A DNA stretch of 33,557 bases, from positions 1-33,557 of IMG/VR virus record IMGVR_UViG_3300024262_000135. One strand, given 5' to 3'. Below the pieces are notes generated by a model, which saw only the letters and a program-made list of their open reading frames with translations, was not told the DNA's origin and did not search any database. Position numbers and translations under genes: made by a program. This document shows, piece by piece, positions 2,880 to 33,526 of the stretch (position 1 is the first letter of the stretch; the number at the start of each line of letters is the position of its first letter). This stretch comes from a virus.

Positions 2880-2893
2880 GGAGGAAGGCGAAA

Positions 2894-3022: not shown

Positions 3023-3041
3023 TTTGGAGGCCGTGGGATAA

Positions 3042-3457: not shown

Positions 3458-3565
3458 GCCCTGCCGACAATTTTCCTCTCGACATGTCGCCCGTCCTGGA
3501 CGATGTTAAACCCTGTGCATTACGTATCTGAGCCGTAAAACATTCCAGTATTGCTGTTGTAGTAG

Positions 3566-3574
3566 TGTTGTAAT
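3566..3574 (+). promoter_or_regulatory. Possible extended -10 promoter for the packaging operon
   Basis: TGTTGTAAT contains an extended -10 TG followed by TGTAAT (five of six matches to TATAAT). No good -35 is visible at 16-18 bases upstream. Transcription would begin near 3581, about 24 bases before the TTG start at 3605. Weak call. Confidence 0.3.
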
Positions 3575-3604
3575 GCTGTGCATACCAGTAAAGGAGCGCG
3601 GGCT

Positions 3605-3835: not shown

Positions 3836-3858
3836 TTTGGCATTGGAGTATGCTTATC

Positions 3859-4194
3859 ATGGGCAAGCCTGGTAAAGCAAATCCTGCAAACCTGAAACGT
3901 CCGGGCGGCCGTCCCAAAGGTTCGACAAATAAATACGGCAAAACCGTGCGGGACCAATTCCTTCTGGCATTTGAAGAACTCGGCGGCCTAAAGGCGTTGG
4001 TGAAGTGGGCGAGGTCGTCGCTGGTCCGCCGGTTGGAATTCTACAAACTTCTTGTGCACATCCTGCCCAAAACTGTGGAGGCAAGCGTTGAGCACACCTG
4101 GAATATCGAAGGTCTGGACTTCGGAGGGCATAGTGAACCCGAGGAAGTCTCAAAATTCTGCCAGTCTTACAGCAGCAGATTTTCTGAAAATTGA
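3859..4194 (+). CDS. terS: Probable small terminase subunit (TerS-like)
   Basis: A 111-residue protein immediately upstream of the large terminase. The N-terminus PGGRPKGSTNKYGKTVRDQF and the following FEELGGLKALVKWA and EFYKLLVHILPK match a family of short phage proteins found before large terminases. TerS subunits recognise the packaging site and regulate the motor. The ATG at 3859 is preferred over one at 3850, which lies only one base from the GGAG. The C-terminal 20 codons overlap the terminase ATPase gene in another frame. Confidence 0.65.
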   Translation: MGKPGKANPANLKRPGGRPKGSTNKYGKTVRDQFLLAFEELGGLKALVKWARSSLVRRLEFYKLLVHILPKTVEASVEHTWNIEGLDFGGHSEPEEVSKFCQSYSSRFSEN

Positions 4195-4813
4195 GCAGGA
4201 CGAGACCTGGCAGAACTACGAACGCACGCGGGTGCGCGTTGACCCCTGGTATTGGCTGACGAATTACTGCTGGACGCTTGACGAGCACGACCCTGAACGC
4301 CCGTTCAAACGATTTCCCAACCGACCGTATCTGCGGGAATTGTGCGCTTTGTGGTTTGAGCAGCCGTTGCTGGCGGTGAGCAAAAGTCGGCAGATGATGG
4401 CGACATGGTTATTCGCACTGTTGTATCTTGGCGACTGTCAATTCAGGCGTGGCCGGCTGAACTTCTTTCAGAGCAAAAAAGAGGAGGATGCTGCGGCGAT
4501 TCTTGATCGCGTTGAGGGTGCGTGGAAACGCCAGCCGCCGTGGATTCGCGTGCCGATGCACCGGACGCGGGGGCCGCACGTTATGAAATTCGCAGAGAAC
4601 GACAGCCGCTTGTGGGCGATTCCCCAGGGCGAGGACATGATACGTTCGCACACGGCAAGCGGGGTTCTGATGGACGAGGTTGCTTTTCAGGACCAGGCGG
4701 AAGGTGCATATTCGGCGGCGCAGCCGTCAATCGAGGGCGGCGGTCGCATGACGTTGCTGTCAAGTGCAAACCCCGGATGGTTTTGTGAGGGGCTTTTGGG
4801 AAATGCAGCGTAA
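4133..4813 (+). CDS. terL: Large terminase, ATPase-domain fragment
   Basis: A 226-residue protein with the packaging-motor ATPase domain only. The Walker A-like segment is KSRQMMAT (84-91), a deviant form used by many phage terminases. Walker B is GVLMDE (177-182), and the coupling motif LLSSANPG is at 208-215. The adenine-binding region lies near PFKRFPNRPYLREL. The reading frame stops six residues after WFCEG, where a normal TerL would continue into the nuclease. That nuclease is encoded separately at 5485-6450. The GTG at 4133 follows GGAGGG by five bases, and the TTG at 4052 would overlap TerS far more. With the second part the total is 547 residues, a normal TerL size. Confidence 0.85.
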   Translation: MNPRKSQNSASLTAADFLKIEQDETWQNYERTRVRVDPWYWLTNYCWTLDEHDPERPFKRFPNRPYLRELCALWFEQPLLAVSKSRQMMATWLFALLYLGDCQFRRGRLNFFQSKKEEDAAAILDRVEGAWKRQPPWIRVPMHRTRGPHVMKFAENDSRLWAIPQGEDMIRSHTASGVLMDEVAFQDQAEGAYSAAQPSIEGGGRMTLLSSANPGWFCEGLLGNAA

Positions 4814-4834
4814 ACCGAAAGGAGAGAAAAACTG

Positions 4835-5083
4835 ATGGCAAAGGCAAAGAAAGCAGTCGTAAAAAGCGCGGACAGTATGGCGGAGGTTGTTTTCAGCAAG
4901 GATGAAATGTCGGAACTCCAGCGCGACCGTGATACGATAGCCGCCGGTGGCTTGCCACACGCGGCCCGGCCCATCGTGCTGAAACTGATTGACGTGGCTG
5001 ACGCTGTGGATGCGGCAGACGGGAACGAAGCGCCCGGCGGGCATTTGAAGCAGTCGCTGGTTGGCCCGGGCTTGCCCGAATAA
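4835..5083 (+). CDS. Small hypothetical protein inserted between the terminase halves
   Basis: An 82-residue protein with AAAGGAG ten bases before its ATG. It begins with a Lys/Ala-rich stretch (MAKAKKAVVKS), has an acidic helix (FSKDEMSELQRDRDTI), and ends with a Gly/Pro-rich tail. It has no visible nuclease, intein or maturase motif, so it does not explain how the terminase was split. Its TAA overlaps the next ATG (TAATG), so the three genes of the inserted cassette form one coupled unit. Confidence 0.6.
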   Translation: MAKAKKAVVKSADSMAEVVFSKDEMSELQRDRDTIAAGGLPHAARPIVLKLIDVADAVDAADGNEAPGGHLKQSLVGPGLPE

Positions 5084-5298
5084 TGCCGACCTACGATTAT
5101 CGCTGCGCCGATTGCGGGCATGAGTTTGAGCGGTTCGAGGCGATAACTGCCAAGCCGCTCAGAACCTGCCCGCTATGCGAGGGAAAGGTGAAACGGCTCA
5201 TCGGTGCGGGCGGGGCCGTCATATTTCGCGGGAACGGGTTTTACTGCAATGATTATCCGAAGCAGCGGCGAGAACCTGAAAAAAAGGAGAGTGAATAA
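5083..5298 (+). CDS. FmdB-type zinc-ribbon protein
   Basis: A 71-residue protein opening with MPTYDYRCADCGHEFE, followed by LRTCPLCEGKVKRLIG. This is the typical two-knuckle (CxxC...CxxC) zinc ribbon of the FmdB putative regulatory family, including the usual GGAVIFRGNGFY extension. Family members are small and poorly understood, and phages often carry them near packaging or structural genes. It starts on the stop of the previous gene (TAATG) and ends on the start of the next, inside the cassette that separates the two terminase genes. Confidence 0.8.
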   Translation: MPTYDYRCADCGHEFERFEAITAKPLRTCPLCEGKVKRLIGAGGAVIFRGNGFYCNDYPKQRREPEKKESE

Positions 5299-5510
5299 TG
5301 TCTCATCAATCATGTGCGAATTGCATGTATTACTGGCCGGAGCCGAAAGCATGTCGGCGGCACGCGCCGCAGGCGATAGTCGTGCCGGTGCCTGCCAACA
5401 TCGTGGCTGCGCCGATGAATGCTTTGATACTGTGGCCGCCGTCGCGGGACGACCGGTGGTGTGGCGAATGGAAGGCGAGAGTTGATGTCGCAGCCGCAAC
5501 AGAAAATTGA
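5298..5510 (+). CDS. Small cysteine-rich protein (CxxCxYW...WCGEWK family)
   Basis: A 70-residue protein: SCANCMYYWPEPKACRRHAP at the start and DDRWCGEWK near the end. The four cysteines suggest one metal-binding module. A similar arrangement appears at 30050-30418 (CNDCEHWDG...NDWCSDWK) and more loosely at 1105-1431. It starts on the previous stop and overlaps the terminase nuclease gene by 26 bases, so translation may be coupled to it. Function unknown. Confidence 0.75.
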   Translation: MSHQSCANCMYYWPEPKACRRHAPQAIVVPVPANIVAAPMNALILWPPSRDDRWCGEWKARVDVAAATEN

Positions 5511-6450
5511 GAAGGCCAACAGCGGGTTGCGTGTCGAGCGCTTGAAAAGCGGCTTTGTTCACGTGCGCCTTCACTACTCGGCGGACCCGAGGAAGGACGC
5601 CGATTGGGTTGCGATGCAGTCGGCAAAGGTCGGCGGGGTGAATTCGTGGAAATGGCGCAAAGAGCAGGAAATAGACTGGAACGTTGCCGCCGGTCAGCGA
5701 ATATGGCCGATGCTCGACGAGGCTGTCCACGTGCAGGCGTGGCCGGGGGAGCAGTATCTGAATCCGGCCTGGACGCTGTGGCGTTCGATCGACCACGGCA
5801 TTCGTCACCCGTGCTGCTGTGCGTTTGTCGCGGTGAATGCCGAGCACACGCTTTACGTATGGGACGAGTATTACAAGACCGATTCGGTGATTGTGGAGAA
5901 TTGCCAGAACATTATCGACCGGCACAAGGGCATCGAGTTTGCAGGGAACGTTATAGACCCGTCGACGCGGCAGCGTCTTGCGGACAAGCCGTCAAGCATC
6001 TTGGAGGAATACGCGAGGCATGGGCTGGTGAGTGTGCCGGCGGATAACTCGGCAGCGGGGTATGACGCGGTGGCCCGGGGGTTGCTTTCAACCCTTGCGC
6101 GGTGGAGCATTGACAAGAACGCGGTGCACCCGAAACTTGGCGAGGCGAAGGTGAGCCGTCAAGCATTGTTCGAGTTGGCGAAGGCCCCGGCGTTATTGTT
6201 TCATCCGCGCTGCACTCGGATATTCCGCGAGATGCAGAACCTTCGGTTCAGGGACAGGCGGGGCGACCCTGCGCAACATGCGGAGCCGGAGAAGGCGGTG
6301 GACGTGGCCGACGAGGGGCCGGATGTCGTGCGATACGCGCGGCAAAGCCGCGTGGTAACATTCGTCCGTCCGAAGCCAAAGGTGGATGTGTTTGACGTGA
6401 TGGAACAACTCCAGAAACGCGGCAAGACGTTGAACAGGATAACGGGATAA
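5485..6450 (+). CDS. terL: Large terminase, nuclease-domain fragment
   Basis: A 321-residue protein that reads as the C-terminal half of a phage large terminase. FVHVRLHYSADPRKD (24-38) and WRKEQEIDW (57-65) are the usual linker after the ATPase. The RNase H-like nuclease follows: RSIDHG (D103), NVIDPS (D158), and DVADEGPDVVRYA with D280 at the typical third acidic site. The ATG at 5485 has GGAAGG nine bases upstream, giving it its own translation start. It must work with the ATPase fragment at 4133-4813 to package DNA. No catalytic position looks lost, so both halves may be functional as two subunits. Confidence 0.85.
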   Translation: MSQPQQKIEKANSGLRVERLKSGFVHVRLHYSADPRKDADWVAMQSAKVGGVNSWKWRKEQEIDWNVAAGQRIWPMLDEAVHVQAWPGEQYLNPAWTLWRSIDHGIRHPCCCAFVAVNAEHTLYVWDEYYKTDSVIVENCQNIIDRHKGIEFAGNVIDPSTRQRLADKPSSILEEYARHGLVSVPADNSAAGYDAVARGLLSTLARWSIDKNAVHPKLGEAKVSRQALFELAKAPALLFHPRCTRIFREMQNLRFRDRRGDPAQHAEPEKAVDVADEGPDVVRYARQSRVVTFVRPKPKVDVFDVMEQLQKRGKTLNRITG

Positions 6451-6454
6451 CATA

Positions 6455-8548
6455 ATGGCAAAAACGTGGGAGCGGGTTAAGAAAAGAGTTCTCGGGATTG
6501 GGGGGATTCTCGGTGCCGCCGAGGACAATGAAACCCTACGCGAGCAGCAGGGCTTGATTCGCTTTTGGCTGAAACTGGTGAACCAGCATCAACGTTTGCC
6601 GGTGGCGGCGTGGCAAGAGGCGCAAGACCAGTATGACGCAAGCGGCGATTTCGAGAAGAAGTCGAACTGGCCGCGCTTGCCGGTGTGGAAAGATTCACGC
6701 GATACCGAGATGGCTTACATCGACCAGATACCGCCCGACATCGGCGTAAGCCCGCACCCGGCACGGCAGGACGATGAGGAAGCCCGCGCGGCCGCGGCAT
6801 GTGACGAAGCCCTGCTTGCATACATCCAGAAAGAGCAGTGCTTTGCGAAACAGTTCAGCATGGCGTTATTGAGCGCGGAGATTAAGAATAACGGCTATGT
6901 GGTGCACATCTGGGATTCGCGCAAGTGGTTGCCGGACATCCGATACGTTGACAATACGCAGGTTGCGTGGGACCCGGATTGCGGGCCGCAGACCAAGCAT
7001 GCCGGTTGGTGTGCGTGGGTCGAGTGGGTATCGCCGTATGAGGTGAGCAAGTGGCGCGCGACGAAGGACGTTGCGCTTAAGGAGCTCCAACGGGTGGCGC
7101 AGGAGGCACCGGCCCCGAAAGCCGGTGACGAGCGCGACCGCACGCCGGAGGAGCAAAGGACGTTCAAAAAATGCAAACTGTGGCACATATTCGCACGGGG
7201 CCAGGCCGCTCTGTACGAAACCGAGCCGTCGGGCGAGGGCACGGAACCGCCGACTCCGAGGCGCGCATCGGCAGACGAGGGCGAGCCAAAGCGCTACCTC
7301 GAAATTGTGGAAGGCCCGGGGACAGGCCCCGGCATTCTCATCCGTGACGATAATGAGTGGCCGTTTGTGCTCGATTATGACGAGTGGCCGATTACGATGC
7401 TCACCTTCAATCAATCTCTCCAGAACATCTACGGGACGGGGGATTACCGTTATCAATATCGCATGGGCGAATTGTTGCGTGGCGTGGTGGCCGATTGGGA
7501 CCGGCGGCTTGCCCTGAAGGCATACCTGAAGTTTCTCGGGCGTCGCGGCGTGAAGATAGACCCCGTGAAGATAAACGCCTTCTTCAACAGCCCGAATGTC
7601 GAGTTGCTCGAGGAGATGCTTGACGAGGAAGGGCGGCCGTTAATTGCCGCGTTTGACCTGGGGGACGTCTCGGCAGACCTCGTGCAGGCCATTGGCGTGG
7701 CAAAGCAGATGTATGAAGAAACCACGACCCAGGCCGACCTCAAGCGGCTGCCGGACCCTGGGGCGTTCAAGACGGCTTTTCAAGCGCAGCAGGCGGGTGA
7801 GGCGGCACATGCCAAGCCTAATCGCCGATTGCGAACCTATGAAACGTTTCTCGTCAAAGCCATGAACAAGACGTTGCAGATAGCCCACCAGAAACTGGAA
7901 CCGCTGACGCAAATCAAACGGCCGATATATGCCGAAGAAGTCTTGCGTGACGAAGCGGGCGAACCGGTGCTTGACGACCTCGGCCAGATGGTCATACAGC
8001 CGACGCTTGACGCGGATGGCAATCGCGTAATCATGGATTACGAGCCGCCGGTAAGCGTGTCCTATGAACGTGCGAGAATCGAACGGGAGGCCGACCCGGA
8101 GATTAAGATTTTACGCTTCGGCGTCGATGCAATAGTGGGGGCGGAAAAGGCGGCGACGTGGCAGCAGATGAGTCCCGAGGAAATCCGGGCCTCGGTTTTC
8201 GTCTATCTCGAACACGGCGGCACGCAGCGTCAGGCGAAAATGCAGAAGGCGTCGGCGCTGGAGCAACTAATGACAAGCCTGATGCCGTTTTATTTGCAGA
8301 TAGGTCGCCCCGACCTCGTTGCCAATCTCGTCAAGCGGATAATGGAGTTGCTGCAGATTCAGAATATCGACGAACTTGTGCCGGAGGGAACAGAACTTGA
8401 GCAGCAGCAAAACGCTCCTGGACCTGGAGGCCCCGTTGGAAACGAGCCGCAAGGCCCTGGAGATGTTCAGGGCGCACAAGGCCCCGGGGGGCCGGACGTC
8501 GGACAACGACCCGCGGTTGAAGGTAGCGGACAAGGCGTTCTCCGATAG
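6455..8548 (+). CDS. Portal protein
   Basis: A 697-residue protein directly after the terminase, close in length to P22-type portals (about 725). It has the portal layout: a helical N-terminus, a segment like KQFSMALLSAEIKNNGYVVHIWD that leads into the wing region, and a long stem/clip region around YQYRMGELLRGVVADWDRRL. The portal forms the ring through which DNA enters and leaves the capsid. The last 50 residues are Gly/Pro/Gln-rich (LEQQQNAPGPGGP onward). That DNA also encodes, in another frame, the start of the next gene. No strong ribosome site is visible; the ATG lies two codons after the terminase stop. Confidence 0.8.
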   Translation: MAKTWERVKKRVLGIGGILGAAEDNETLREQQGLIRFWLKLVNQHQRLPVAAWQEAQDQYDASGDFEKKSNWPRLPVWKDSRDTEMAYIDQIPPDIGVSPHPARQDDEEARAAAACDEALLAYIQKEQCFAKQFSMALLSAEIKNNGYVVHIWDSRKWLPDIRYVDNTQVAWDPDCGPQTKHAGWCAWVEWVSPYEVSKWRATKDVALKELQRVAQEAPAPKAGDERDRTPEEQRTFKKCKLWHIFARGQAALYETEPSGEGTEPPTPRRASADEGEPKRYLEIVEGPGTGPGILIRDDNEWPFVLDYDEWPITMLTFNQSLQNIYGTGDYRYQYRMGELLRGVVADWDRRLALKAYLKFLGRRGVKIDPVKINAFFNSPNVELLEEMLDEEGRPLIAAFDLGDVSADLVQAIGVAKQMYEETTTQADLKRLPDPGAFKTAFQAQQAGEAAHAKPNRRLRTYETFLVKAMNKTLQIAHQKLEPLTQIKRPIYAEEVLRDEAGEPVLDDLGQMVIQPTLDADGNRVIMDYEPPVSVSYERARIEREADPEIKILRFGVDAIVGAEKAATWQQMSPEEIRASVFVYLEHGGTQRQAKMQKASALEQLMTSLMPFYLQIGRPDLVANLVKRIMELLQIQNIDELVPEGTELEQQQNAPGPGGPVGNEPQGPGDVQGAQGPGGPDVGQRPAVEGSGQGVLR

Positions 8549-8898: not shown

Positions 8899-9099
8899 AT
8901 GCCGCAGGCAGGCGACGTGGTGACTTTAATAGACCTCGACGGAAGGCCGACGGGTCATTTTCGGGTGCAACACGCATCCCATCGGAAACTGGCCTTGCGG
9001 GTGATTACGGCAACGGCGTTTGGAGAAGCGGCTGCGGAAAAAATGAAGCAAGAGCAAGGGCACTACTTGAAGATTGCGAATTCACCGGCAATCCGGTAA
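8899..9099 (+). CDS. Small hypothetical protein, beta-rich (66 aa)
   Basis: The ATG at 8899 has GGAAGGAAT upstream. The product starts MPQAGDVVTLIDLDGRPTG and looks like a small beta-rich fold. It sits between the small gene at 8707 and the scaffold gene. A competing frame over the same bases (from 8844) has no ribosome site here, and I treat it as the upstream open part of the scaffold frame. Confidence 0.5.
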   Translation: MPQAGDVVTLIDLDGRPTGHFRVQHASHRKLALRVITATAFGEAAAEKMKQEQGHYLKIANSPAIR

Positions 9100-9134
9100 T
9101 AACGCCGGACGGTTCAGATAAGGGAGTAGGGAAA

Positions 9135-10157
9135 ATGAAGAAGTCCTTTTGGAATCGGCTTTGCGTTGCCGCAACCCGATTGCACCGTGACGAGACGGGG
9201 CAGTTGGGCGGCGATGCGGATGCCGAAGGCCAGGCTGGGGAACCCGGGCGTGCCCCCGAGGGCCAACCTGATGGAGAGGGCGTGCTGGTGCCGGACATGC
9301 AAAGCATTGTTCAGCAAGCGTTAGAAGCGGACGGGGAAGCGGAACCAGGACCAGAGCCGGAACCGGCCAGAGATGAGCCGGCGGCTTACAATCCCCTGGA
9401 TATTTACCCCGACAGCCGCTTTGGAAATGTCCAAACGCCGGAAGAACACGTCAAAAAATTGGGGCAAAGTTACGAGAATCTCGAACGAAGCTTTCACGAA
9501 CGGGACGAGGAAGTGGGCCGTCTGCGGGCGATAGCGGAGCAATTTGAGCAGCTCAAATCTGCGCGCCCCGCCGGACAACCGGCCCCGGATGTTGAACCCG
9601 AGAGGTGGACGGAGGAGGAAGTTGCAGACTTATTGGCAAGTTCTCCAATGCAGGTATTCAACGATTTTGGCACACAGCTCGAAAAGCGTTTTAACACGAT
9701 GTTAGAGCAACGCTTCGGGCCGGTCAACGAGCAGTTGGGCACACTGGCAAACCAGCCGGCGGAGATAGAATCCCGCATGGCCTGGCAGGGATTATGCCAG
9801 AGGTATCCCGATGCCCCGAAGTTCGCAAAAGAGATGATTGCGACACGGGACGAAGTCGGGATGTGTCCTTTCGAGGACCACCTGAGATACCTGCGGGAGA
9901 TAAAACGCGCCGAGCCGGAACTCGCGCCGCTTGTGGCGGAGTTTCTGTCGATAACGGATAGTGCCGGTAATCACAAATTCACATTCGAGCGTGCGAGGCA
10001 TCTTGCAGAGTCCGAGCGCGCGAGATCGGCACGACCCGCACCGACAAAGCCCGGCGGCCCAATGTCCACGTCCACGCAACCTCGCGGCGGCGATGCCGTC
10101 CTCAACGTCCAGCACTCCGATGTTCGTAGAGCAGTTGAAGATACGGCGGGTCTGTAA
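9135..10157 (+). CDS. Probable capsid scaffolding protein
   Basis: A 340-residue, strongly acidic, low-complexity protein immediately before the major capsid gene, which is the usual scaffold position. Residues about 15-100 are Gly/Glu/Pro-rich. Residues about 100-142 look like a coiled coil (HVKKLGQSYENLERSFHERD then EEVGRLRAIAEQFEQL). The C-terminal part is basic (RARHLAESERARSARPAP), as in scaffolds that bind the capsid shell through a basic end. The ATG at 9135 follows AAGGGAG. The frame is open upstream to 8844, but that region overlaps two other genes. Assignment rests on position and composition. Confidence 0.65.
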   Translation: MKKSFWNRLCVAATRLHRDETGQLGGDADAEGQAGEPGRAPEGQPDGEGVLVPDMQSIVQQALEADGEAEPGPEPEPARDEPAAYNPLDIYPDSRFGNVQTPEEHVKKLGQSYENLERSFHERDEEVGRLRAIAEQFEQLKSARPAGQPAPDVEPERWTEEEVADLLASSPMQVFNDFGTQLEKRFNTMLEQRFGPVNEQLGTLANQPAEIESRMAWQGLCQRYPDAPKFAKEMIATRDEVGMCPFEDHLRYLREIKRAEPELAPLVAEFLSITDSAGNHKFTFERARHLAESERARSARPAPTKPGGPMSTSTQPRGGDAVLNVQHSDVRRAVEDTAGL

Positions 10158-10193: not shown

Positions 10194-11246
10194 ATGGGCA
10201 TGCTTGATACGAGACGCGGTAAGGCTATGCGCTTTGCCTGCGAAAAAGCAATAGCGAACGGCGTGAGCAACATCAATCCGCTGTTCTGGAAGATGGTCGA
10301 AAAATGGAAAAACGTGCGCTACGGCGCAGGCGGGTCAACGTATGACTGGCTCATCAGGAAGGCGTTGCCAACGGCGACTACTCGCGTAGGCCGGCCGCTG
10401 GAGACACGCACGTTTGCAGAACGCGACGCAAAGGACAAGCCAAGCGTGGCCTGGCACAGCACCGAGGCGACGGCGGCAATCAACGAGGGCGACTACCAGC
10501 AGAACCGAGCCAACGAGACGAAACTTTACAACATGTTCGCAGACGAGGCCGAAGATGCTCAGGCTGCCATCTACGTTGCGCTGTCGCTTGGCATGTGGGC
10601 GCCGAACGAGACGAGCCAGCCGGGTGGCCTCTCGCTTGTCGCAGACCCCGAAGGCGGCACCCTTACGTCGTCTTACGCGGGCCTGTCGCGAGTGTTGGCG
10701 ACGAACCCGCATTGGAGTCCGCCGGACAATGACTACGGCGCGCTGACCATTGCGGCCAACGCGATGGAGATAATCACCAACTGCGCAGGCGACGTCACGA
10801 AAAGCGCGAAGGCCTCCGGGCAGGGCGCGGTAGTGCGGCCCGACTTCGCGGCATTCTCCAAAGCCTCGTGGGACCAACTCCAGGTGTGGATTGCGACAAA
10901 GACGACCTGGCTTGCCAATGCAGGTGGCCCCAAGAACGACGCGATGTTCGAGGCGGGTTTCCCGAACGTGCGTATCTACGGGTGCGACTGTTTCTGGGAC
11001 GACGACTTCGGCGGCGCGACGGGTTACCTTGACGGCGCGGCGGCGGAGGAATTCGTAGTTGGCTCGTCGAAGATGATTACCCTGGCGACCACGCACACGA
11101 AGGCCGAAGGTCTGGTGACCTCGGTAGTGAGCGAGGGCGACTCGGGGCCGCTGGCGGCGTTGCTTGCCGGCTCGGTTGCCGTATTCAAGGCGTACTGGAC
11201 GTTGAAGTTTACCAGCCCGATATTCTTCACCTGCGCCTACACATAA
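10194..11246 (+). CDS. Probable major capsid protein
   Basis: A 350-residue protein with AGGAGA upstream, directly after the scaffold-like gene and followed by a hairpin, as expected for a highly expressed capsid gene. The sequence is Ala/Gly/Thr-rich with balanced beta content. It includes motifs such as FWKMVEKWKNVRYGAGG and the late MFEAGFPNVRIYGCDCFWDDDF, which resembles the P-domain region in HK97-fold capsid proteins. I could not align it to a named family by eye, so the call rests mainly on gene order, size and composition. Confidence 0.7.
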   Translation: MGMLDTRRGKAMRFACEKAIANGVSNINPLFWKMVEKWKNVRYGAGGSTYDWLIRKALPTATTRVGRPLETRTFAERDAKDKPSVAWHSTEATAAINEGDYQQNRANETKLYNMFADEAEDAQAAIYVALSLGMWAPNETSQPGGLSLVADPEGGTLTSSYAGLSRVLATNPHWSPPDNDYGALTIAANAMEIITNCAGDVTKSAKASGQGAVVRPDFAAFSKASWDQLQVWIATKTTWLANAGGPKNDAMFEAGFPNVRIYGCDCFWDDDFGGATGYLDGAAAEEFVVGSSKMITLATTHTKAEGLVTSVVSEGDSGPLAALLAGSVAVFKAYWTLKFTSPIFFTCAYT

Positions 11247-13186: not shown

Positions 13187-15148
13187 ATGCCGCAGGCACA
13201 AGCGCAGACAACGGCTTTTCTCGGGCTGAACACGAGGACCAGTCCCGCATCGATGGCCTGGCAGGAGGGTCTGGCGGACAATGCGATGAACCGCCGACTC
13301 GATATGAGCGGCATGTTTCGCCGACGGCCCGGGTTCTCTCGATATGGCTCCCTGCCGCAAACGACAGCGGGGTCGAAAATACTCAACGGCTGGCAGTTTC
13401 ACTGCGATTCGCAGAACAAGGACTACCTCATCATCCATTGTGCCGATCAGAAACTCTACTCCGCCCAACTGCCAAACGACAACACCTTCGCGCCAATAGC
13501 CAACGCGACGGCAGCGAGTGCAACGGAGGCGGGAACCGGCTTTGTGTATAACGACCAGTTTTATTATTATGACACGGGCATTGCCTACCAATGGAAAGGC
13601 ACCGGCATTGCAAACACGCCGGGACTTGCTGCCCCTGTTGCCGCAGCAATACCTGCCGAAGATGCCCTGGTTTCCAGTCGCATGCGCAAAGGGCGGCGGT
13701 GGTATATCCAGACTGCGTGGGATGCAACCCGAAACGTTGAAAGCCTCCCAAGCCCGGTGCCGGCGGCCGTAACGGAACTTGCCACATCGTTTGACCGAAA
13801 AGTAACTATTACCAATGCAGGGGCAGCAAAAAACCGCTATTACCGGACGCTGCGCACGGACGACAGCCGCAACATTTACAATTCCGAAAGCCTGTTTTAT
13901 TTCGTCGGCGAGGACGACACTACCGGATATATTGACTTTCGCAATGACGAAGAAATCATGCACCAACGCCTTAATTGCCGTGGCGGACAGCCCAAAAAGT
14001 GCAAGTATGCTATGATGCACCGAGGCCGTGCCTTTTACGGTTTCTATACTACTGCACCGGGTGGCAAGACGGACATCGCCCTCGACCGCCTCATCGAGTG
14101 GAGCAGCGCGGGGAGACCCGAGGAAGTCGCGCGGGAATACAGCATCACTTACGGCGCGGAGATAATCGAGCAGATGCCCGAATTGGTGCCTGGTCTTTTC
14201 ATGGAATCGCGGATATGGGTGCCGGAGAATGTCGGCGGCACATTGACGGGCCTCGCCTCGTGGGGACGCAACCTGTTCTGGTTCACGCAGCACGCGGCGG
14301 GTATCCTTGAAGGAGAAATCGAGCCGTTTAGACAGTTGGTGCTTTCGCACCAGGTCGGGGCATGCGCGCACCGGACGTTGCAGACCTGCGGCGATTGGGG
14401 ATTTTTCGGCGCCTCGCAAAACGGCGTGTGGCGATGGCGCGGCGAGGGCTTCGAGGAACTCGGCCGTTTGGAAATCGACATCACCGACAGCGCGAAATGC
14501 ACGGCACTTAACCCCGCGCAACTGTCCAACTCCTTTGGCCTGTGGGTGCCCGAGCTCCAGGAGTATTGGTGGATTGCGGCGGCGGCCGGAAGCACGGACC
14601 GCACCCGCGCGATAGTCTATCAGGTCGATCGCGGCATCTTCACCGGCCCTTATGACTTCGAGCTTGGCGTCGGGATTGAGTTCACCGGCGGGCTTACGGT
14701 TGTCCTCGACGATGTTGACCCCGTAACGATACTGTTCACCTCCGACGGCTATGTGGTGAAACTTGACGATACGGTAATGACGGATTACAACGCGACGGCG
14801 GCCAACGACTTCACGACAACGGCGCGCTACTGGTTCGGCGGCAACTCGCCCATGTCGGTCAAGAAAGACCACCTGTTCGAGATATGCTATAACTCGATAA
14901 CCCCCGACAAGAAGGTGCGCCACGTGGCGCGGGCCGGGAAATTCGCCATTGCCGGGCATCTTCAGTACGACACGCATCACGAACTGCAAAGCACGGATGA
15001 GCAATATCCGATTGCAAGGGTGCCGCTTGTGGAAAGCGGCCGGTATGCAATGCTCGAAATACGCGAACCGGCGGGGTGCGATGCGCCGATAACGAGCATC
15101 ACATGGAAACGAGAGGAAGTGCCGTGGGACGAGAAGGGCGTGAGGTAA
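13187..15148 (+). CDS. Large tail protein, beta-propeller or nozzle type
   Basis: A 653-residue, almost wholly beta-rich protein after the adaptor-like gene. Repeated short strands with Gly-Trp/Phe turns look like blades (GDWGFFGASQNGVWRWRGEG, GLASWGRNLFWFTQ, TILFTSDGYVVKLDD). It starts FLGLNTRTSPASMAWQEG, an N-terminus I associate with podovirus tail proteins of the P22 gp10 / tubular-protein-B position. It would form the tail hub or nozzle. A long open frame on the opposite strand over this gene is a codon-bias shadow. Confidence 0.55.
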   Translation: MPQAQAQTTAFLGLNTRTSPASMAWQEGLADNAMNRRLDMSGMFRRRPGFSRYGSLPQTTAGSKILNGWQFHCDSQNKDYLIIHCADQKLYSAQLPNDNTFAPIANATAASATEAGTGFVYNDQFYYYDTGIAYQWKGTGIANTPGLAAPVAAAIPAEDALVSSRMRKGRRWYIQTAWDATRNVESLPSPVPAAVTELATSFDRKVTITNAGAAKNRYYRTLRTDDSRNIYNSESLFYFVGEDDTTGYIDFRNDEEIMHQRLNCRGGQPKKCKYAMMHRGRAFYGFYTTAPGGKTDIALDRLIEWSSAGRPEEVAREYSITYGAEIIEQMPELVPGLFMESRIWVPENVGGTLTGLASWGRNLFWFTQHAAGILEGEIEPFRQLVLSHQVGACAHRTLQTCGDWGFFGASQNGVWRWRGEGFEELGRLEIDITDSAKCTALNPAQLSNSFGLWVPELQEYWWIAAAAGSTDRTRAIVYQVDRGIFTGPYDFELGVGIEFTGGLTVVLDDVDPVTILFTSDGYVVKLDDTVMTDYNATAANDFTTTARYWFGGNSPMSVKKDHLFEICYNSITPDKKVRHVARAGKFAIAGHLQYDTHHELQSTDEQYPIARVPLVESGRYAMLEIREPAGCDAPITSITWKREEVPWDEKGVR

Positions 15149-25871: not shown

Positions 25872-27221
25872 ATGGCAGATAAATATGCCTTGACGGGCTT
25901 GTGGTCTGATGTTGCCGGTCTTGCATGGTCGCTCTCCAATGGCGGAGCCCCCGGTGCGGCTAAACCAGCGGGCGGCGAGAAAGTGTATTTCACATCTAAC
26001 AGCGGCGACATGGTGTTGGATGAGGACAGCAACGCCCTTGCCTCTCTTAATATGACAGGATACGCCGACACGCTTACGGATGACGGCCATGCGTGGGTAA
26101 TTGACGTGGACGGCCTGGCGGTTCTCAACGGCACAATCAACCTCGCTACGCCCGGTAGCGGCATCAATGTGGCGGGAGACATTCAAGTTCGTCCTGTTAC
26201 ATCCTTCTTGGCGGGCCTTTTGACAGGAGATTCTGCGGCGGGGGCCCAAACAATAAGAACGTATGACAATCAGATTCCCGCGTTCACCCTGAACAATGGA
26301 GCGGCAACCGGTTTTAACGAGATTGGTAATGTAACTGTGGCAGGCAACATCCAGATTCTAACGAGCAAATTCACATCCGGGAAAAAATGGACGCAGACCG
26401 GCAGCGGGACTTTGGCAAACGGGGCCGCGGGAGGGGCAGCATTTGCTAATTTGCAAGTGGCAGCGGCGGGATTTACCTGCACGTTTACTGGACATGTCTA
26501 TACAAAGAAGTTCAGCCACGGCGCAGGAACGGTGGATGGCGGCGGTATTGTCGGCGGTCTTTGGTTGCGAATACGTCCAGTGGCGAATGACTTCTTCGAG
26601 ACGTTAGCCACGCCGGCGGGTTTTGCGTTACTTAGTGTGATGATTGAACCGCAAACAGGAGTAGGCAATCTTACAAATAACAAACCGGTTAATTTGTTGA
26701 CAACGGGCCTTCTGATTACAGCGTTCGATAACAACCAGACAGTTACGCAGAGTCGGGCACTCACTTGTGCGAGTTTGTTGGTGCGGGCTGCGGCACCGGG
26801 GAAAACGGGGATATTTATTATGGGCGGCGGCGCTCCGCTTACAACGCCACAGGTCTTTTTTGGATACGCGGCGGCGGCGACATTTCTTGGCAAAATATCT
26901 CTCGGCGCAGGCATTCATCGTTTGGGGCCGGTGGCAAAGGCATTAGCCACGGCCGACCCCGGGCATGCGCTTGATTTTGATTCCTGCTACATCGAGGCGA
27001 CTGGCCTGATAGACCTGACCGACATCACGCCGACCAACGTGGCTGCGCATATCGAATGCGGAGCGGCCGGCAGCGTTGACAACATGCCTGCGGCGGGCCT
27101 TACGGAAAAGGTTCATGCTTACGGAGTGAGTCCTGATGGCGGGAGCAACAGCGCGGCGAACATTGACTTCAACGCACACGCGCCGCCGGGGTCGCTTGTG
27201 CTCGCTGGCGCGGGAATATAA
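25872..27221 (+). CDS. Fibre- or tailspike-like protein (449 aa)
   Basis: AAAGGAGT precedes the ATG. The protein is Gly/Ala/Asn/Thr-rich and made of short strands with recurrent hydrophobic-small patterns (VLNGTINLATPGSG, VTVAGNIQILTSKF, GTVDGGGIVGGLW). This suggests a beta-helix or stacked-strand fibre, as in receptor-binding proteins. Its place after the ejection proteins and before lysis genes fits. The C-terminal part (SLGAGIHRLGPVAKALATAD onward) may be a separate domain. No enzymatic motif is seen. Confidence 0.55.
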   Translation: MADKYALTGLWSDVAGLAWSLSNGGAPGAAKPAGGEKVYFTSNSGDMVLDEDSNALASLNMTGYADTLTDDGHAWVIDVDGLAVLNGTINLATPGSGINVAGDIQVRPVTSFLAGLLTGDSAAGAQTIRTYDNQIPAFTLNNGAATGFNEIGNVTVAGNIQILTSKFTSGKKWTQTGSGTLANGAAGGAAFANLQVAAAGFTCTFTGHVYTKKFSHGAGTVDGGGIVGGLWLRIRPVANDFFETLATPAGFALLSVMIEPQTGVGNLTNNKPVNLLTTGLLITAFDNNQTVTQSRALTCASLLVRAAAPGKTGIFIMGGGAPLTTPQVFFGYAAAATFLGKISLGAGIHRLGPVAKALATADPGHALDFDSCYIEATGLIDLTDITPTNVAAHIECGAAGSVDNMPAAGLTEKVHAYGVSPDGGSNSAANIDFNAHAPPGSLVLAGAGI

Positions 27222-27242
27222 CAACAGAGGGAGATTTTGCCA

Positions 27243-27506
27243 ATGAACATCGAAAACGTGGTCTCCGCATTTATCGTGCTTTGTTTCGGGAGCTTCCTTG
27301 CCGGACTCGGCTATTGCGTCAAGAAAATACTCTCGCATGATGCCTCGCTTGAGGCCGTGCACGCCGACATTGAGAACATGAAAATCCAGGCGACGCAGCG
27401 GGAGCGCATGGCGGAGGAGAACAACCGCACGCTGCGGCTGGTTCACAGAATGGTCGTAAAAATCGCGGCAAAAAATGGCATAGAAATCGAGGAAGGAGGA
27501 AACTGA
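27243..27506 (+). CDS. Single-pass membrane protein with coiled coil, holin candidate (87 aa)
   Basis: The ATG at 27243 has GGGAG nine bases upstream; a TTG at 27237 is possible but too near. Residues about 6-28 form a hydrophobic helix (FIVLCFGSFLAGLGYCVKKIL). A charged helical region with coiled-coil character follows (ADIENMKIQATQRERMAEEN). Small proteins of this design lie in phage lysis cassettes as holins or spanin-like parts. The two lipoproteins and a transglycosylase downstream make a lysis role likely, but which role is unclear. Confidence 0.55.
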   Translation: MNIENVVSAFIVLCFGSFLAGLGYCVKKILSHDASLEAVHADIENMKIQATQRERMAEENNRTLRLVHRMVVKIAAKNGIEIEEGGN

Positions 27507-27508
27507 TT

Positions 27509-27901
27509 ATGAGAAAAGTAGCGATGTTGTTTCTGGTGGGGATTGTGTTTGTGGGCGGCTGCCAAAGTGCGTTTAAGGAAAATCGCATAGCGGCAAACCT
27601 GCGGCTGGCTACCGAAGTGCGCCTTTGCGCGACGGAGGCACGCGCGCCTACCGCCGAGGTTGTTGCGCTTGCCGACACCGTAACGCTTCAGGAAAGCATT
27701 GCGGCAAAACAGGACGCTCTGCTTGAAGACGCGCTGGTCAAGGCCAACGCGCCGATTGCGGACATCCTTGCGGACGCGCAGGCGGAGATGGAAAAAAATC
27801 AAACTTTCAACGACATTGTGGCCAAGTTGCCGCCGGGCATCATCCCGATGGCGTTCGACGTGCTCAAAGTGGTAATCGGGATTGCGTTGATGGGACTCTA
27901 A
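27509..27901 (+). CDS. Lipoprotein (130 aa), lysis-region
   Basis: AAGGAGG precedes the ATG. A clear lipoprotein signal is present: a basic start, then MLFLVGIVFVGGC with the acylated Cys at residue 18. The mature part is Ala-rich and helical. It ends with a short hydrophobic segment (FDVLKVVIGIALMGL), so it may touch or cross a membrane at both ends. It could be an outer-membrane spanin-like protein, though it is longer than most. Confidence 0.6.
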   Translation: MRKVAMLFLVGIVFVGGCQSAFKENRIAANLRLATEVRLCATEARAPTAEVVALADTVTLQESIAAKQDALLEDALVKANAPIADILADAQAEMEKNQTFNDIVAKLPPGIIPMAFDVLKVVIGIALMGL

Positions 27902-28338
27902 TGACAGACCGCAGGGCATTTTGGGTTTGCGCATCACTGACTGCGCTTCTTGCGGCGCAGGTGGCGGCAAGCCTTGTAATTCTTTTGCTTGCCGGTTGCG
28001 CGACCGACCCGGCCCTTGTCGAGCGAATAGGGAAAATCGAGGCGGCGCTGGCCGACGTCAAACTCTCGGCCGAGACCGTCGAGGGCGACATGGCTGCGGT
28101 GAAGGTCGGCGGCTCCGGCTTCTATCTTGCCGTTGGGCTTGCCCTCGTTCTCGCCGCCGGTCTGGGCCTCGTATATCTTCGCCTGAAGTTCTACCGTGGC
28201 ACGACGCTTGCCACGACCTCGGCGATAAAGCAATGGGGCACGACCGGAATAGCCAAATCGGTGCGGAACAACGCGCTTGCTCTCGGCGTTCAGAAGGGCC
28301 TGTCGAAGTTCCTGACCAAGCGGGACTTGAGGGTGTAA
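27901..28338 (+). CDS. Second lipoprotein with internal membrane helix (145 aa)
   Basis: It starts on the stop of the previous gene (TAATG). A long hydrophobic signal ends in the lipobox LLAGC, Cys at residue 33. A short coiled-coil-like part follows (IGKIEAALADVKLSAETVEG), then a hydrophobic helix (FYLAVGLALVLAAGLGLVYL) and a basic C-terminus. A lipid anchor plus a transmembrane helix is unusual. It could bridge membranes during lysis (inference). It is the last gene before the 600-base non-coding region. Confidence 0.6.
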   Translation: MTDRRAFWVCASLTALLAAQVAASLVILLLAGCATDPALVERIGKIEAALADVKLSAETVEGDMAAVKVGGSGFYLAVGLALVLAAGLGLVYLRLKFYRGTTLATTSAIKQWGTTGIAKSVRNNALALGVQKGLSKFLTKRDLRV

Positions 28339-28351
28339 GCCGATTTTTCGC

Positions 28352-28380
28352 TTGACTTCTGCTCCAGCGGTGTCTATAAT
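28352..28380 (+). promoter_or_regulatory. Consensus sigma70-type promoter
   Basis: TTGACT at 28352-28357 and TATAAT at 28375-28380 are separated by exactly 17 bases. This is the best promoter visible in the window. It lies just after the second lipoprotein gene and points into a non-coding region, with transcription expected to begin near 28387. Confidence 0.8.
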
Positions 28381-28386
28381 TAGGAT

Positions 28387-28723
28387 GGAAAGCGCAACTC
28401 GGTCGGCATCAAGGCATGAACCGATACCGCGAAACTCATGCAGTGTGAGGTGCAGGTGGAAAAGGACATGACAAGGACGACGCCGACCGGCTTGCATAAG
28501 GTGACCGGCGCGTGTCTGGGCGAAACGCACTAAAAGCCCCGCCAGCAATAGACCACGAACTACTAACAAGCGCTCACTGAGAACACACGGCGGACAGCGC
28601 ACTTATTAAAAGACATATATGTGCGTATAAACTTGTTTTGCCTTCATTCGGCACCATCACACGGTGTTTTTTGCGGTGTGACTTAGGGTCGGTTCCGAGA
28701 TGCCCGGGACCGGCCCGCTTTTT
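28387..28723 (+). ncRNA. Candidate structured non-coding RNA, about 337 nt
   Basis: It is bounded by a consensus promoter and a strong terminator and contains no frame with a ribosome site on the + strand. Several pairings are visible. CGGTCGG (28400-28406) can pair with CCGATACCG (28421-28429) as a bulged hairpin. Alternatively CGGTCGGC (28400-28407) pairs perfectly with GCCGACCG (28482-28489), so the two structures compete. CGCCG/CGGCG flank 28481-28510, GGGC/GCCC lie at 28518-28539, and GCGCT/AGCGC at 28570-28600. ACATATATGT (28613-28622) is a perfect palindrome. I could not match it to tmRNA, RNase P RNA, 6S or SRP RNA by eye. The exact ends are inferred. Confidence 0.6.
28686..28723 (+). 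terminator. Intrinsic terminator
   Basis: GGGTCGGTTCC (28686-28696) pairs with GGGACCGGCCC (28706-28716) over 11 base pairs with two G-U pairs and a 9-base loop. GC and then TTTTT (28719-28723) follow. It ends the RNA started at 28352. Confidence 0.85.
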
Positions 28724-28941
28724 GACTCCCGCCGTTAGAACATCTGCCGAACAAGCGCCTAATGGACACTTGGTTTTTGGGACGCATCCGCGACCGTTTC
28801 CAACTCTCGGCCATTCGGCCATATACATCATACAGACGATTTTCATCCCGCCATACCACATATTGATAATTCTGCGATTTCGGGATTTTTGAGTGGACTT
28901 TTGCCGCCGAATCGCTGATAATTCATATGGAGGGTCGGAAC
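28724..28941 (+). other. Non-coding stretch between terminator and transglycosylase
   Basis: No supported gene on either strand. It appears lower in GC than its surroundings. CGGCCAT occurs twice (28808-28814 and 28816-28822) and can form a GGCC/GGCC hairpin. A possible promoter lies at 28894-28922, just before the transglycosylase. Confidence 0.5.
28894..28922 (+). promoter_or_regulatory. Possible promoter for the transglycosylase
   Basis: TGGACT (28894-28899, four of six matches to TTGACA), a 17-base spacer and GATAAT (28917-28922, five of six matches to TATAAT). Because an intrinsic terminator lies upstream, the next gene needs a promoter of its own or readthrough. The transcript would start about 13 bases before the ATG at 28942 and would still include the GGAGGG site, though only just. 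Confidence 0.4.
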
Positions 28942-29808
28942 ATGGTTCAAGCAGGAAATCCAGAATACAAAAACTGGCCGGGCGTTGCGGCGATTCACGT
29001 CAATGCGTGTTTCGGTCCTCCGACATACCGCGCGCCCGGCTTGAAATTGCTGAAATCTCTTGTCGTTGCAAGTATCGTGTTTGGCGTATGGGGATGCGGG
29101 TTCGCCGGTTATGTGTCTCTCCGCGAATCCGCGATAGAAGGGCCTGGGATAATCCGTGTGGATAACGCCGGACCCAGGCCCACAGCGATTCAATCGGGCC
29201 TCGGCGCCTTTGACCGTGCGAAGGAGCCTCACGCGAGCCGAGGGAACTGTGGCCGAGGCCCGTTGATTCAGAAGGGGGAAGTAAAATGGCAGGCACGAAA
29301 ATCAAATGCGCGTCCGCCGATTGCAGCCTCAACGCCGGGGGCTTCTGCGTGTATGACACCGCCATCATCGGCCGCGGCGGACGTTGTGCGCGCCATCTGC
29401 GGACAACGGAGATTAGCATATATCTCCCTCACAGAGATTACCATCGCTGTCATTCAGGTGGAAAGCGGCGGGAACCCGGGCGCGAAATCCAAAAAAGGCG
29501 CGCGAGGTCTCATGCAAATAATGCCTCGAACCTGGGCTGATTTGACGGATGAGCCGTTTTCCCGTGCCGATGAGCCGGAGTTGAACATCGAGATTGGGAC
29601 AATGTATCTGGTCTGGATCGAAAAGACTCTCGCCGGATGGATGGGCAGGCCGCCGAGTATCGAGCAAATCCTTGCCGCTTACAACGGCGGAATAGGGCGA
29701 TTGCGAAACGGCGGATACGCAATCGAGCGTATGCCGCGCGAGTCGAGAGAGTATGTGCTCGATGTGATGGGGGCGAGGAACTTTGGGGAGGACAAAAAAT
29801 GTCAGTAA
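28942..29808 (+). CDS. Membrane-anchored lytic transglycosylase (SLT fold)
   Basis: A 288-residue enzyme that should cleave peptidoglycan at the glycan strand. Residues about 36-58 form a membrane helix (LLKSLVVASIVFGVWGCGFA). A long Pro/Ala/Ser linker follows to about residue 150. The SLT domain runs from about 155 to 275 and contains the catalytic glutamate E174 in VIQVESGGNPGAKS, then GARGLMQIMPRTW and ILAAYNGG. ATG 28942 with GGAGGG seven bases upstream is preferred over ATG 28927. It may act in lysis or during entry. A second gene is nested in another frame in the linker-to-domain region (29286-29540). Confidence 0.85.
   Translation: MVQAGNPEYKNWPGVAAIHVNACFGPPTYRAPGLKLLKSLVVASIVFGVWGCGFAGYVSLRESAIEGPGIIRVDNAGPRPTAIQSGLGAFDRAKEPHASRGNCGRGPLIQKGEVKWQARKSNARPPIAASTPGASACMTPPSSAAADVVRAICGQRRLAYISLTEITIAVIQVESGGNPGAKSKKGARGLMQIMPRTWADLTDEPFSRADEPELNIEIGTMYLVWIEKTLAGWMGRPPSIEQILAAYNGGIGRLRNGGYAIERMPRESREYVLDVMGARNFGEDKKCQ
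29286..29540 (+). CDS. Nested cysteine-rich small protein, DUF1540-like, out of frame in the transglycosylase
   Basis: An 84-residue frame with an excellent site (AAGGGGG nine bases before the ATG). It opens with IKCASADCSLN, continues AGGFCVYD and then GRGGRCARH. The C-x4-C...C...C layout resembles the DUF1540 type and the second half of the protein at 30050-30418 (KCNVAECALASAGYCLVHG). That match argues that at least residues 1-40 are a real gene or a relic of one. Residues beyond 45 look like ordinary shadow of the SLT domain. It lies within a coding gene in another frame, so it may be a functional nested gene or a trace of a fused ancestor. Confidence 0.5.
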   Translation: MAGTKIKCASADCSLNAGGFCVYDTAIIGRGGRCARHLRTTEISIYLPHRDYHRCHSGGKRREPGREIQKRRARSHANNASNLG

Positions 29809-31400: not shown

Positions 31401-32357
31401 ATGAACAATGAACGAGAAAATGGCGGGACTGCGGAAATCGTCCCCGTAGAGCGTCCCGAAATGGAAATGAGCGGGTTGGTTGTGCACGACGACCCCCATG
31501 CAGAAATCGTGCGTATGGAGGCGGCGGCGGACCTCGCCCCGAGATACGCGGCGGCCATACGCACATTGCTGTTGGCGCATACCTTTGCCGACGACTGGAG
31601 CGTGTGGGACGACAAGATTTGTCTCTCCAGCGCGGGGGCCGAGCGGGTCGGCCGGCAATTCGGCTACCAGGTGTTCAATGTGGCGAGCCGCAAAGAGTCC
31701 TTCACAGACGACCTCGGCAAAGGCTATCGCTACATCTACGAGGGGCAGGCCGCTCTCGGCGGACGTATCGTATGGGCGCGGGGTTCGTTTTCGACGCGGG
31801 ACAAACTCCTCGGTTACAAGGGCGGGGCATACCGGCCTCTTGAGGACATCAACGAGCAGCACATCGCGTCGGCGGCGTTGCACATCTTTCGCGGCAATGC
31901 GCTGAAGGCGCTTCTTGGTTTGCGCGGCCTGCCGCTGGCGGATTGGAAAGAAATGAAGCAACGTGCAGGCATCAAGGGCGAGCCGAAAGCCGTGCCTGTT
32001 GGCAAGGGCGCGCAGGGCGGCACGGCGAAAGCCGACACGGAGAAGCAGCAGAAACTTGCCGCCATCTGCTATCTGTTCGTGGATGCCGGTCTGACCATCA
32101 ACTACGATGAGGCCACAAAGGACTGCGAGACGATTCCCGCATTTGACGATGACTCGCCGCGAGAAAAGCAGGCGGCGGCGGTATGTGTTGCCCTTTCAAG
32201 TTTTGTGAACGACAAGGGCAATCTTATCAAGGGCAAGGCGTGGGCGGACCTTCGCGGCAAGTGGCTGAACTCGACTCTTGGCCGCGCGCGCCTGCTGGCC
32301 GACAAGGACCTGCCCGCGGAGCCGGCGGAGCAGGAGGAACATTTGTTGGGCGAGTAG
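31401..32357 (+). CDS. Candidate recombination/annealing protein next to exonuclease (318 aa)
   Basis: AAAGGAG precedes the ATG. The core (residues 45-190) has WSVWDDKICLSSAGAERVGR, YIYEGQAALGGRIVWARG and HIASAALHIFRGNALKALLG. Phage proteins of this kind often lie directly before a Cas4/RecB-type exonuclease, the pairing used by recombination modules such as annealase plus exonuclease. The C-terminal part is charged and Ala/Lys-rich. I do not see a definite RecT, Erf or Rad52 motif, so function rests on context. Confidence 0.4.
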   Translation: MNNERENGGTAEIVPVERPEMEMSGLVVHDDPHAEIVRMEAAADLAPRYAAAIRTLLLAHTFADDWSVWDDKICLSSAGAERVGRQFGYQVFNVASRKESFTDDLGKGYRYIYEGQAALGGRIVWARGSFSTRDKLLGYKGGAYRPLEDINEQHIASAALHIFRGNALKALLGLRGLPLADWKEMKQRAGIKGEPKAVPVGKGAQGGTAKADTEKQQKLAAICYLFVDAGLTINYDEATKDCETIPAFDDDSPREKQAAAVCVALSSFVNDKGNLIKGKAWADLRGKWLNSTLGRARLLADKDLPAEPAEQEEHLLGE

Positions 32358-32366
32358 TTATCCCAA

Positions 32367-32431
32367 ATCCCCTTGCGGGTCAGGCGGGGGGATGGCATCC
32401 TGCGCCGCGGGTGCGTGACCTGCGGCGCGGG
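32367..32431 (+). promoter_or_regulatory. Two GC-rich hairpins before the exonuclease gene
   Basis: ATCCCC (32367-32372) pairs with GGGGAT (32388-32393). The second is far stronger: 14 bases at 32399-32412 pair with 32418-32431 with two wobble pairs, closing the five-base loop GCGTG. No T run follows, so this is not a plain terminator. It lies about 30 bases upstream of the exonuclease start and may affect mRNA stability or translation. Confidence 0.5.
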
Positions 32432-32461
32432 TGCCGAATAGCAGAGAAAGGAGCGTGTAAG

Positions 32462-33526
32462 ATGTTGTTTCCCGATATTCAAGAGGCCCTCGACGTCTAC
32501 CTCGAAAAGCAGAAAGACGTGTATCCCTGCCGCGTGAATCGGATTAGTCAGATAGGCCACGAATGCGAGCGGTTCCTCTACTACTCTCGCCACAACTGGA
32601 AGGACCAGGTGCCGCCGAATAACCGATTGCAGGGGGCATTCAGTACAGGTAACATTCTGGAGCCGGTAATCGAGCGGATTATCTCGGAGGTTGGGGCCTC
32701 CGCCGTTCCCGCGTTTCGCATCGTCGGTGCGCAGACTCCGACCGATGACAGGCTGTTAAACAACTTTCAGATTTCAGGCAGCATCGACGGCTTTCTACAG
32801 GTCAAGGGCCACCAAGACTGGTTCACCGCCGGCGTTGTTGACATCAAGACAAGCAGTCCAAACGTCTTTGCAACGCTTGACGGCGTGGAAAGCCTGTCGC
32901 GCTACGCCTGGACGAAGCGATACATCGCGCAGTTAACGCTCTACGCACTGGCGCACAATCAGGAACACTGCGTCTTGCTCTTTGTAAACAAGAGCAATCT
33001 GTATGACATGAAACTCATCGGCTGGCAGTTGGACATGGGCTTTGCCGAAAGTCTGTTGCAGAAGGCGAAGCGGGTCAACGAGGCCCTGGAGAAAGACGAG
33101 CCGCCGGAGAAAGTCAACGACCCGAACATCTGCAAGGGCTGTCAATTCGAGCACATCTGCATCCCCGAGTTCACCGTTGGCGACGGCGTGGCTATCTCGA
33201 CCGACGAGGATCTTGAGGCGTTGTTGATTCGGCGGGAAGAACTCAGCGAGACGAGCAAGGAAGCCCGGGCCGTTGACCGACAAATCGACAAAAAACTTGA
33301 GGCATACGGACACAAGCAACTGGTCGCGGGGGATTTTATTATTTTGTGGAAATCGGGGGTGCGGCACATCAAAGCAGCGGACGCGCACAAAGTGGAGACT
33401 TGGTCAAAGAAAATTATCAAGACCCTGCCCGACCCAGTGAACTTGATTGCCTTGTGCCGCTCGTGTAATGCCCGGGTAAACACAAACAGAGCACATTGGA
33501 CACGATATTTTTCAGCTAAGGAGTGA
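32462..33526 (+). CDS. Cas4/RecB-like PD-(D/E)XK exonuclease with HNH-derived C-terminus
   Basis: A 354-residue nuclease. The core carries D109 (SGSIDG), then VVDIKT with D127 and K129, and the YIAQLTLYALAH helix with Q157. C35 (GHECERFLYY) and the cluster C224, C227, C233 (CKGCQFEHIC) match the iron-sulphur site of Cas4/AddB-type nucleases. It probably resects or processes phage DNA ends with the upstream candidate annealing protein. The start at ATG 32462 has AAAGGAG eight bases upstream. Residues 324-350 match residues 141-167 of the HNH protein at 1907-2443 with 20 of 27 identical. The first CxxC and the HH are absent here, so this tail is an inactive HNH remnant, apparently joined onto the nuclease. 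Confidence 0.75.
   Translation: MLFPDIQEALDVYLEKQKDVYPCRVNRISQIGHECERFLYYSRHNWKDQVPPNNRLQGAFSTGNILEPVIERIISEVGASAVPAFRIVGAQTPTDDRLLNNFQISGSIDGFLQVKGHQDWFTAGVVDIKTSSPNVFATLDGVESLSRYAWTKRYIAQLTLYALAHNQEHCVLLFVNKSNLYDMKLIGWQLDMGFAESLLQKAKRVNEALEKDEPPEKVNDPNICKGCQFEHICIPEFTVGDGVAISTDEDLEALLIRREELSETSKEARAVDRQIDKKLEAYGHKQLVAGDFIILWKSGVRHIKAADAHKVETWSKKIIKTLPDPVNLIALCRSCNARVNTNRAHWTRYFSAKE

Follow-up and report, generated by a model that had tools for sequence, protein, structure and literature searches.

The region at positions 28352 to 28723 of virus record IMGVR_UViG_3300024262_000135 probably represents a new phage sRNA gene of no known family, and a structured product is plausible. An autonomous transcription unit at this location is well supported by the sequence signals, and the strongest support is for the combination of a promoter with a terminator. 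The finding amounts to a solid gene call and does not demonstrate a new mechanism. The whole record of 33,557 bases is referred to below as the window. The genes of the phage are read from the plus strand and include a helicase loader, a RuvC-type resolvase, a terminase, structural genes and a 2,248-residue protein, followed by a membrane/lipoprotein cluster (27237 to 28338, assigned by sequence only), then an SLT transglycosylase and, last, a recombination pair that ends in a Cas4-type exonuclease. The candidate RNA unit occupies part of the 603 nt that separate a membrane-protein gene from the SLT-transglycosylase gene (Table 1).

Table 1. Coordinates of the candidate RNA gene, its predicted helices and the neighboring lysis gene
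Feature	Position	Strand	Details
Promoter 1	28352-28380	+	-35 TTGACT, 17-nt spacer, -10 TATAAT; 11/12 match to sigma-70-type consensus
Stand-alone transcript (predicted)	28387-28723	+	About 336 nt, framed by promoter 1 and terminator
Helix B (early)	28394-28495	+	28394-28410 with 28479-28495; 15/17 pairs; predicted fold
Arm A (late, long-range)	28424-28679	+	28424-28475 with 28632-28679; about 41 irregular pairs; predicted fold
Possible micro-ORF	28456-28533	+	GTG start, 25 codons (VEKDMTRTTPTGLHKVTGACLGETH), to TAA 28533
Helix C	28502-28596	+	28502-28528 with 28570-28596; weaker, partners partly re-used in other folds
Helix D	28597-28626	+	28597-28606 with 28617-28626; 9 pairs; kept in every full-RNA fold computed
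Intrinsic terminator	28686-28723	+	12-pair stem (9 G-C) 28686-28716, 7-nt loop, then GCTTTTT; -22.5 kcal/mol
Promoter 2	28884-28931	+	TGGACT-N17-GATAAT, diverged copy of promoter 1 block; 30/48 identical, ungapped
SLT-domain transglycosylase gene	28942-29808	+	Pfam SLT 6e-21; PHROG endolysin 1.5e-20

Transcription signals and the lysis gene downstream

A preliminary description of this DNA had proposed a TTGACT-N17-TATAAT promoter and an 11-bp hairpin terminator with TTTTT, together defining a transcription unit of about 337 nt. The promoter was present as described, and it was the sole site in the window, on both strands, to match at least 11 of the 12 consensus bases, compared with a mean of 0.1 such sites per shuffled window. 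From the promoter spacing, the RNA is predicted to start near 28387. The hairpin and its TTTTT tail were also located, although the stem has 12 pairs and not 11, and this was the best T5-tailed hairpin of the window, equaled once and never surpassed in 25 shuffles. The two signals frame an RNA of about 336 nt, in keeping with the proposed length. Units consisting of a promoter followed by a terminator within 120 to 500 nt, with little same-strand ORF cover, were identified by scanning, and a unit as good as that at 28352 to 28723 was found in none of the 40 shuffled windows. Two units were identified in a total of 466,846 bases of phage DNA, made up of the window and about 433 kb from other phages, and the second was weaker. 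This second unit is located on the minus strand of locus L004 (2278 to 1904), has a weaker hairpin and lacks a same-strand ORF, and may be an sRNA gene of another phage. Of the three copies of GACCGGC listed earlier, those at 28485 and 28503 are in place, but the third begins at 28708, not 28709, and is merely part of the terminator stem.

The statement that promoter 1 is the only consensus promoter in the window is correct at a threshold of at least 11 of 12 matches, but a related block precedes the transglycosylase gene. Both promoter blocks follow the pattern GATTTTTnnnTKGACTTYTGC ... ATAATTnnnATGGA, with 28342 to 28389 and 28884 to 28931 remaining in register through the -35 and -10 and into the bases beyond. 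The latter block is the best match in the window to the promoter 1 block besides that block itself, and no more than 28 identities were reached in 200 shuffles. Promoter 2 lies approximately a dozen bases upstream of the GGAGG (at 28930) and ATG 28942 of the transglycosylase gene, for which ATG 28927 is an alternative start. As a related block is found before each, the RNA and the transglycosylase appear to be two successive units under related promoters, and the shared block suggests that both may be under common control. The prediction that the RNA ends before the transglycosylase, without run-on, gains support from promoter 2.

Using the promoter-block pattern as a query, 25 loci were identified in IMG/VR, of which approximately four (L004, L005, L011 and L012), as judged by eye, had a -10-like sequence at the right distance. 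Because so few of the 25 loci show a -10, TTGACTTTTGC is probably an ordinary extended -35 and not a phage-specific signature; in a few cases in other phages, TTGACTTTTGC is followed by a -10-like sequence, which fits an ordinary host-type promoter. A third TTGACTCCCGC was identified at 28722 to 28732, just past the terminator, which resembles the -35 blocks and is without a -10 at the usual distance. Within the long transglycosylase ORF, the first approximately 165 residues had no family match, and thus the true start of the gene may be further in. The transglycosylase gene also overlaps, in a different frame, with an 84-codon ORF (29286 to 29540) that has a Shine-Dalgarno sequence of the GGGGGA type.

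Predicted fold and alternative helices

Folding of the single sequence gave moderate evidence for a structured RNA. The full RNA with its terminator had a fold z of -3.41 and -3.85 against shuffles in two runs and, when compared by strand, of -3.9 on the plus strand and -1.7 on the minus strand; the terminator contributes part of the full-RNA value. Without the terminator, z was -2.11 on the plus strand and -0.5 on the minus strand, and for 28424 to 28683 the corresponding values were -3.01 and -0.9. Among the background stretches sampled, the lowest fold z (-4.05) was that of the minus strand of 9601 to 9900, which sits in an ORF region with atypical codon use (8899 to 10157 scores -0.10).

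Arm A, which the preliminary description did not mention, is the largest predicted helix; within it, 28443-28453/28650-28661 form a run of 11 Watson-Crick pairs interrupted by one bulge. The layout of a switching RNA had been proposed for the interior, on the grounds that 28400-28407 could pair with 28482-28489 or fold locally with 28421-28429. The first of these pairings is real and extends to the 15 of 17 pairs of helix B. A local alternative also exists, but its partner lies at about 28414 to 28423. The switching layout itself was recovered in the predictions as two crossing, base-disjoint helices, with the minimum-energy fold swapping between them as the transcript grows. Helices A and B dominate the predicted structure and are its strongest feature; as they cross, a nested fold can include only one of the two. 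When the growing transcript was folded, B was part of the minimum-energy fold from about 28496 to 28650 and was replaced by A from 28664 on, that is, after approximately 275 nt, with 27 pairs and then 40 to 41. Forcing part of B into the full RNA cost approximately 6 kcal/mol (-117.8 versus -123.6). We infer that a pseudoknot containing complete A and B is unlikely, as 13 nt (28411 to 28423) would have to span approximately 40 pairs.

Both helices at this strength were found in none of 800 shuffles, but 16 of 434 real stretches of the same genome had two helices this strong (crossing in one case), so that the shuffle comparison overstates their rarity relative to real stretches. A single helix of the strength of arm A was present in 27% of the window stretches of equal length. 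Given the 16 real stretches that also have two such helices, refolding from B to A is a reasonable prediction, not a demonstration.

Known families, coding potential and possible roles

Using the Rfam 15 covariance models, no matches were identified in the whole window. A relaxed Rfam search of 28300 to 28760 returned one chance-level hit, to AsdA (E 5.5, with 13 bits where the cut-off is 52), and neither tmRNA nor tRNA was found with ARAGORN. The Rfam comparison suggested in the preliminary description thus yielded no family at or above its gathering score, and the earlier opinion that the RNA is not tmRNA, RNase P, 6S or SRP RNA agrees with both searches. The known Rfam RNAs considered, including tmRNA, 6S, RNase P, SRP, GOLLD, ROOL and group I/II introns, were rejected as none matched in the window; without an Rfam match, the RNA is not a curated known RNA. 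Relatives of the RNA were not found in phages and plasmids using the "distant" setting of blastn, nor were its exact 18- to 20-mers in IMG/VR and GTDB. Exact-word scans detect close relatives only and near-identical records may be missing from the collections; the lack of a match there is no proof that the RNA is unique.

The explanation that we favor, to which we assign about an even chance, is an independent, trans-acting phage sRNA gene that is co-expressed with the lysis enzyme and acts on host or late phage expression via pairing or protein binding. From what was computed (both signals, the copied promoter, the missing Rfam match and the predicted alternative folds) we infer a course of events in which transcription, actual refolding, action in trans, the stage of expression and the mode of action are all conditional. 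RNA polymerase with a sigma-70-like factor would start at promoter 1 and stop at the hairpin-plus-T terminator, and the resulting RNA would be mainly noncoding and act in trans. At the 5' end, helix B would form first in the nascent RNA; after emergence of the 3' arm (28632 to 28679), arm A would be more stable, B would be lost and the start of the 25-codon frame would become buried. The most likely role of the RNA would be to tune host or late phage expression through base pairing or protein binding. With the promoter block copied in front of the transglycosylase gene, the RNA and the lysis enzyme probably share a stage of expression.

The coding potential of the region bears on a different reading, in which the unit is a small mRNA for a peptide of 21 to 27 residues (from GTG 28456, GTG 28450 or ATG 28468 to TAA 28533), either alone or as a dual-function RNA. 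It had been stated that the unit encodes no credible protein, which fits the longer frames on both strands, as their codon scores were below 0 (nearly all genes here score about +0.1 to +0.5) and no protein-family traces were found in them. The statement does not extend to the 25-codon frame, which has a Shine-Dalgarno sequence (GAGGTG at 28447 to 28452, 3 nt upstream of GTG 28456) and phage-like codons: its codon score ranks at the 50th percentile among the genes of the phage and in the top 3.4% of open noncoding stretches, and was equaled by 8 of 500 shuffles. With only 25 codons these statistics are weak, and the frame was chosen after looking, so that its coding signal is suggestive only. 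Moreover, both the Shine-Dalgarno sequence and the start are buried in the 11-pair helix of arm A in the predicted final fold, and a small mRNA would leave a trailer of 150 nt unexplained. We regard this reading as rather unlikely.

A leader or attenuator of the transglycosylase gene, in which a switching fold chooses between the terminator and read-through into the downstream gene, would make use of the predicted alternative folds and of a terminator placed before the gene on its own strand, with no gene of good codon use in 28724 to 28941. However, the terminator hairpin was intact in every complete fold computed and its arms are left unused by A and B, which leaves no anti-terminator, and beyond the terminator the transglycosylase gene is equipped with a promoter block and a Shine-Dalgarno sequence of its own. 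A terminator-based riboswitch or attenuator was rejected on these grounds, and the broader reading has a low probability. Little more probable is that the sRNA is of the antisense type and acts by blocking a phage gene start, for instance that of the transglycosylase. Lysis genes have been proposed as targets of phage antisense RNAs (PAK_P4as15; PMC12197685). The RNA was scored by duplex energy against 34 phage gene starts with 100 shuffles each. Pairing with the transglycosylase start was no better than for shuffles (z +0.28, with 61 of 100 as good), and antisense action on this gene was rejected. The best predicted phage target was the gene at 11260 (z -3.35, reached by 0 of 100 shuffles), followed by a doubtful start at 4052 (z -3.0), but both are weak, a z of -3.35 being about what 34 tests could give. 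Finally, the region could be a gene in decay or a site that acts at the DNA level (an origin or a packaging signal), with the promoter and terminator as unrelated neighbors. The 603-nt gap is without a homologue and its signals are at the sequence level only, but such a promoter-terminator pair is rare, no GC-skew turn was found near 28.3 kb, and the longer frames have poor codon scores and no family traces; we consider this very improbable.

Intergenic phage sRNAs with their own promoter and terminator include lambda OOP, lambda PreS/LPR1, P22 sar and VP882 VpdS (reviewed in PMC12197685). Like these, the candidate is a short phage gene with its own signals that encodes no large protein and lies between protein genes; the group as given there ranges from 50 to 225 nt (PMC12197685), whereas the candidate is approximately 336 nt with strong long-range pairing predicted. 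PAK_P4as15, proposed to act as an antisense RNA on the endolysin of Pseudomonas phage PAK_P4 (PMC12197685), is likewise a phage RNA tied to a lysis gene, but the candidate is located upstream on the same strand and its pairing with the transglycosylase start does not exceed that of shuffles. GOLLD and ROOL are large ornate RNAs that are often phage linked (PMC12286853). The candidate resembles them as a stand-alone RNA in phage-related DNA with no known function, its structure being a predicted one, and differs in that it matches no Rfam model. GOLLD is approximately 800 nt, and the candidate is well below both GOLLD and ROOL in size. As in kinetic or refolding RNA switches, a 5' helix would form first and a long-range helix later (predicted here from one sequence), but the candidate is without a ligand or an expression platform.

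As phage sRNAs are already a known kind (PMC12197685), the candidate would be a further member, with a small chance of being a new structured class. The latter, to which we give a slim probability, would be an RNA of approximately 336 nt that refolds during transcription or forms a pseudoknot of A and B, is co-expressed with the lysis enzyme via the duplicated promoter, and times or regulates late infection. If transcribed, the candidate would be a large stand-alone addition to the small number of phage sRNAs known, from a phage lineage with structural proteins that had no match in the libraries searched. The shared promoter block ties it to the lysis enzyme, and RNA control at the lysis stage would thus be directly testable.

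The phage and its other genes

The phage is an orphan except for its recombination genes. The nearest named record was that of podovirus MW202801 (Manatee Spring), with the recombination pair at approximately 31 to 33% identity and one small gene in common. The proteins encoded at 6455 to 8548, 10194 to 11246 and 13187 to 15148 had no matches in PHROGs, Pfam or, using tblastn, known phages. Relatives in IMG/VR were not found for five neighboring or structural proteins (that at 25872 to 27221, the transglycosylase, the exonuclease, the 697-aa post-terminase protein and the capsid-like protein of 10194 to 11246), and the capsid-like protein was also not found in GTDB genomes. Alignment of the annealing-type protein led to 16 phage loci, which had only recombination genes and a few small genes in common; the RNA was absent from these records and from MW202801, the best hits being chance words of 14 to 17 nt. 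The annealing-type protein and the Cas4-type exonuclease form the recombination pair at 31401 to 33526, which, as seen in loci L030 to L045, is common to many unrelated uncultured phages at 25 to 35% identity.

The large terminase is apparently split in two, the ATPase-type half being at 4052 to 4813 (PHROG terminase, 1.7e-10) and the other terminase-type half at 5461 to 6450 (PHROG, 4.8e-8). Three small ORFs lie between them, one of which encodes an FmdB-type zinc ribbon (Pfam Zn_ribbon_8, 1.8e-16). This arrangement (4052 to 6450) could be either a two-gene terminase or the result of an inserted cassette. The largest stretch outside the listed genes, 2880 to 4051 (1,172 nt), holds small ORFs only.
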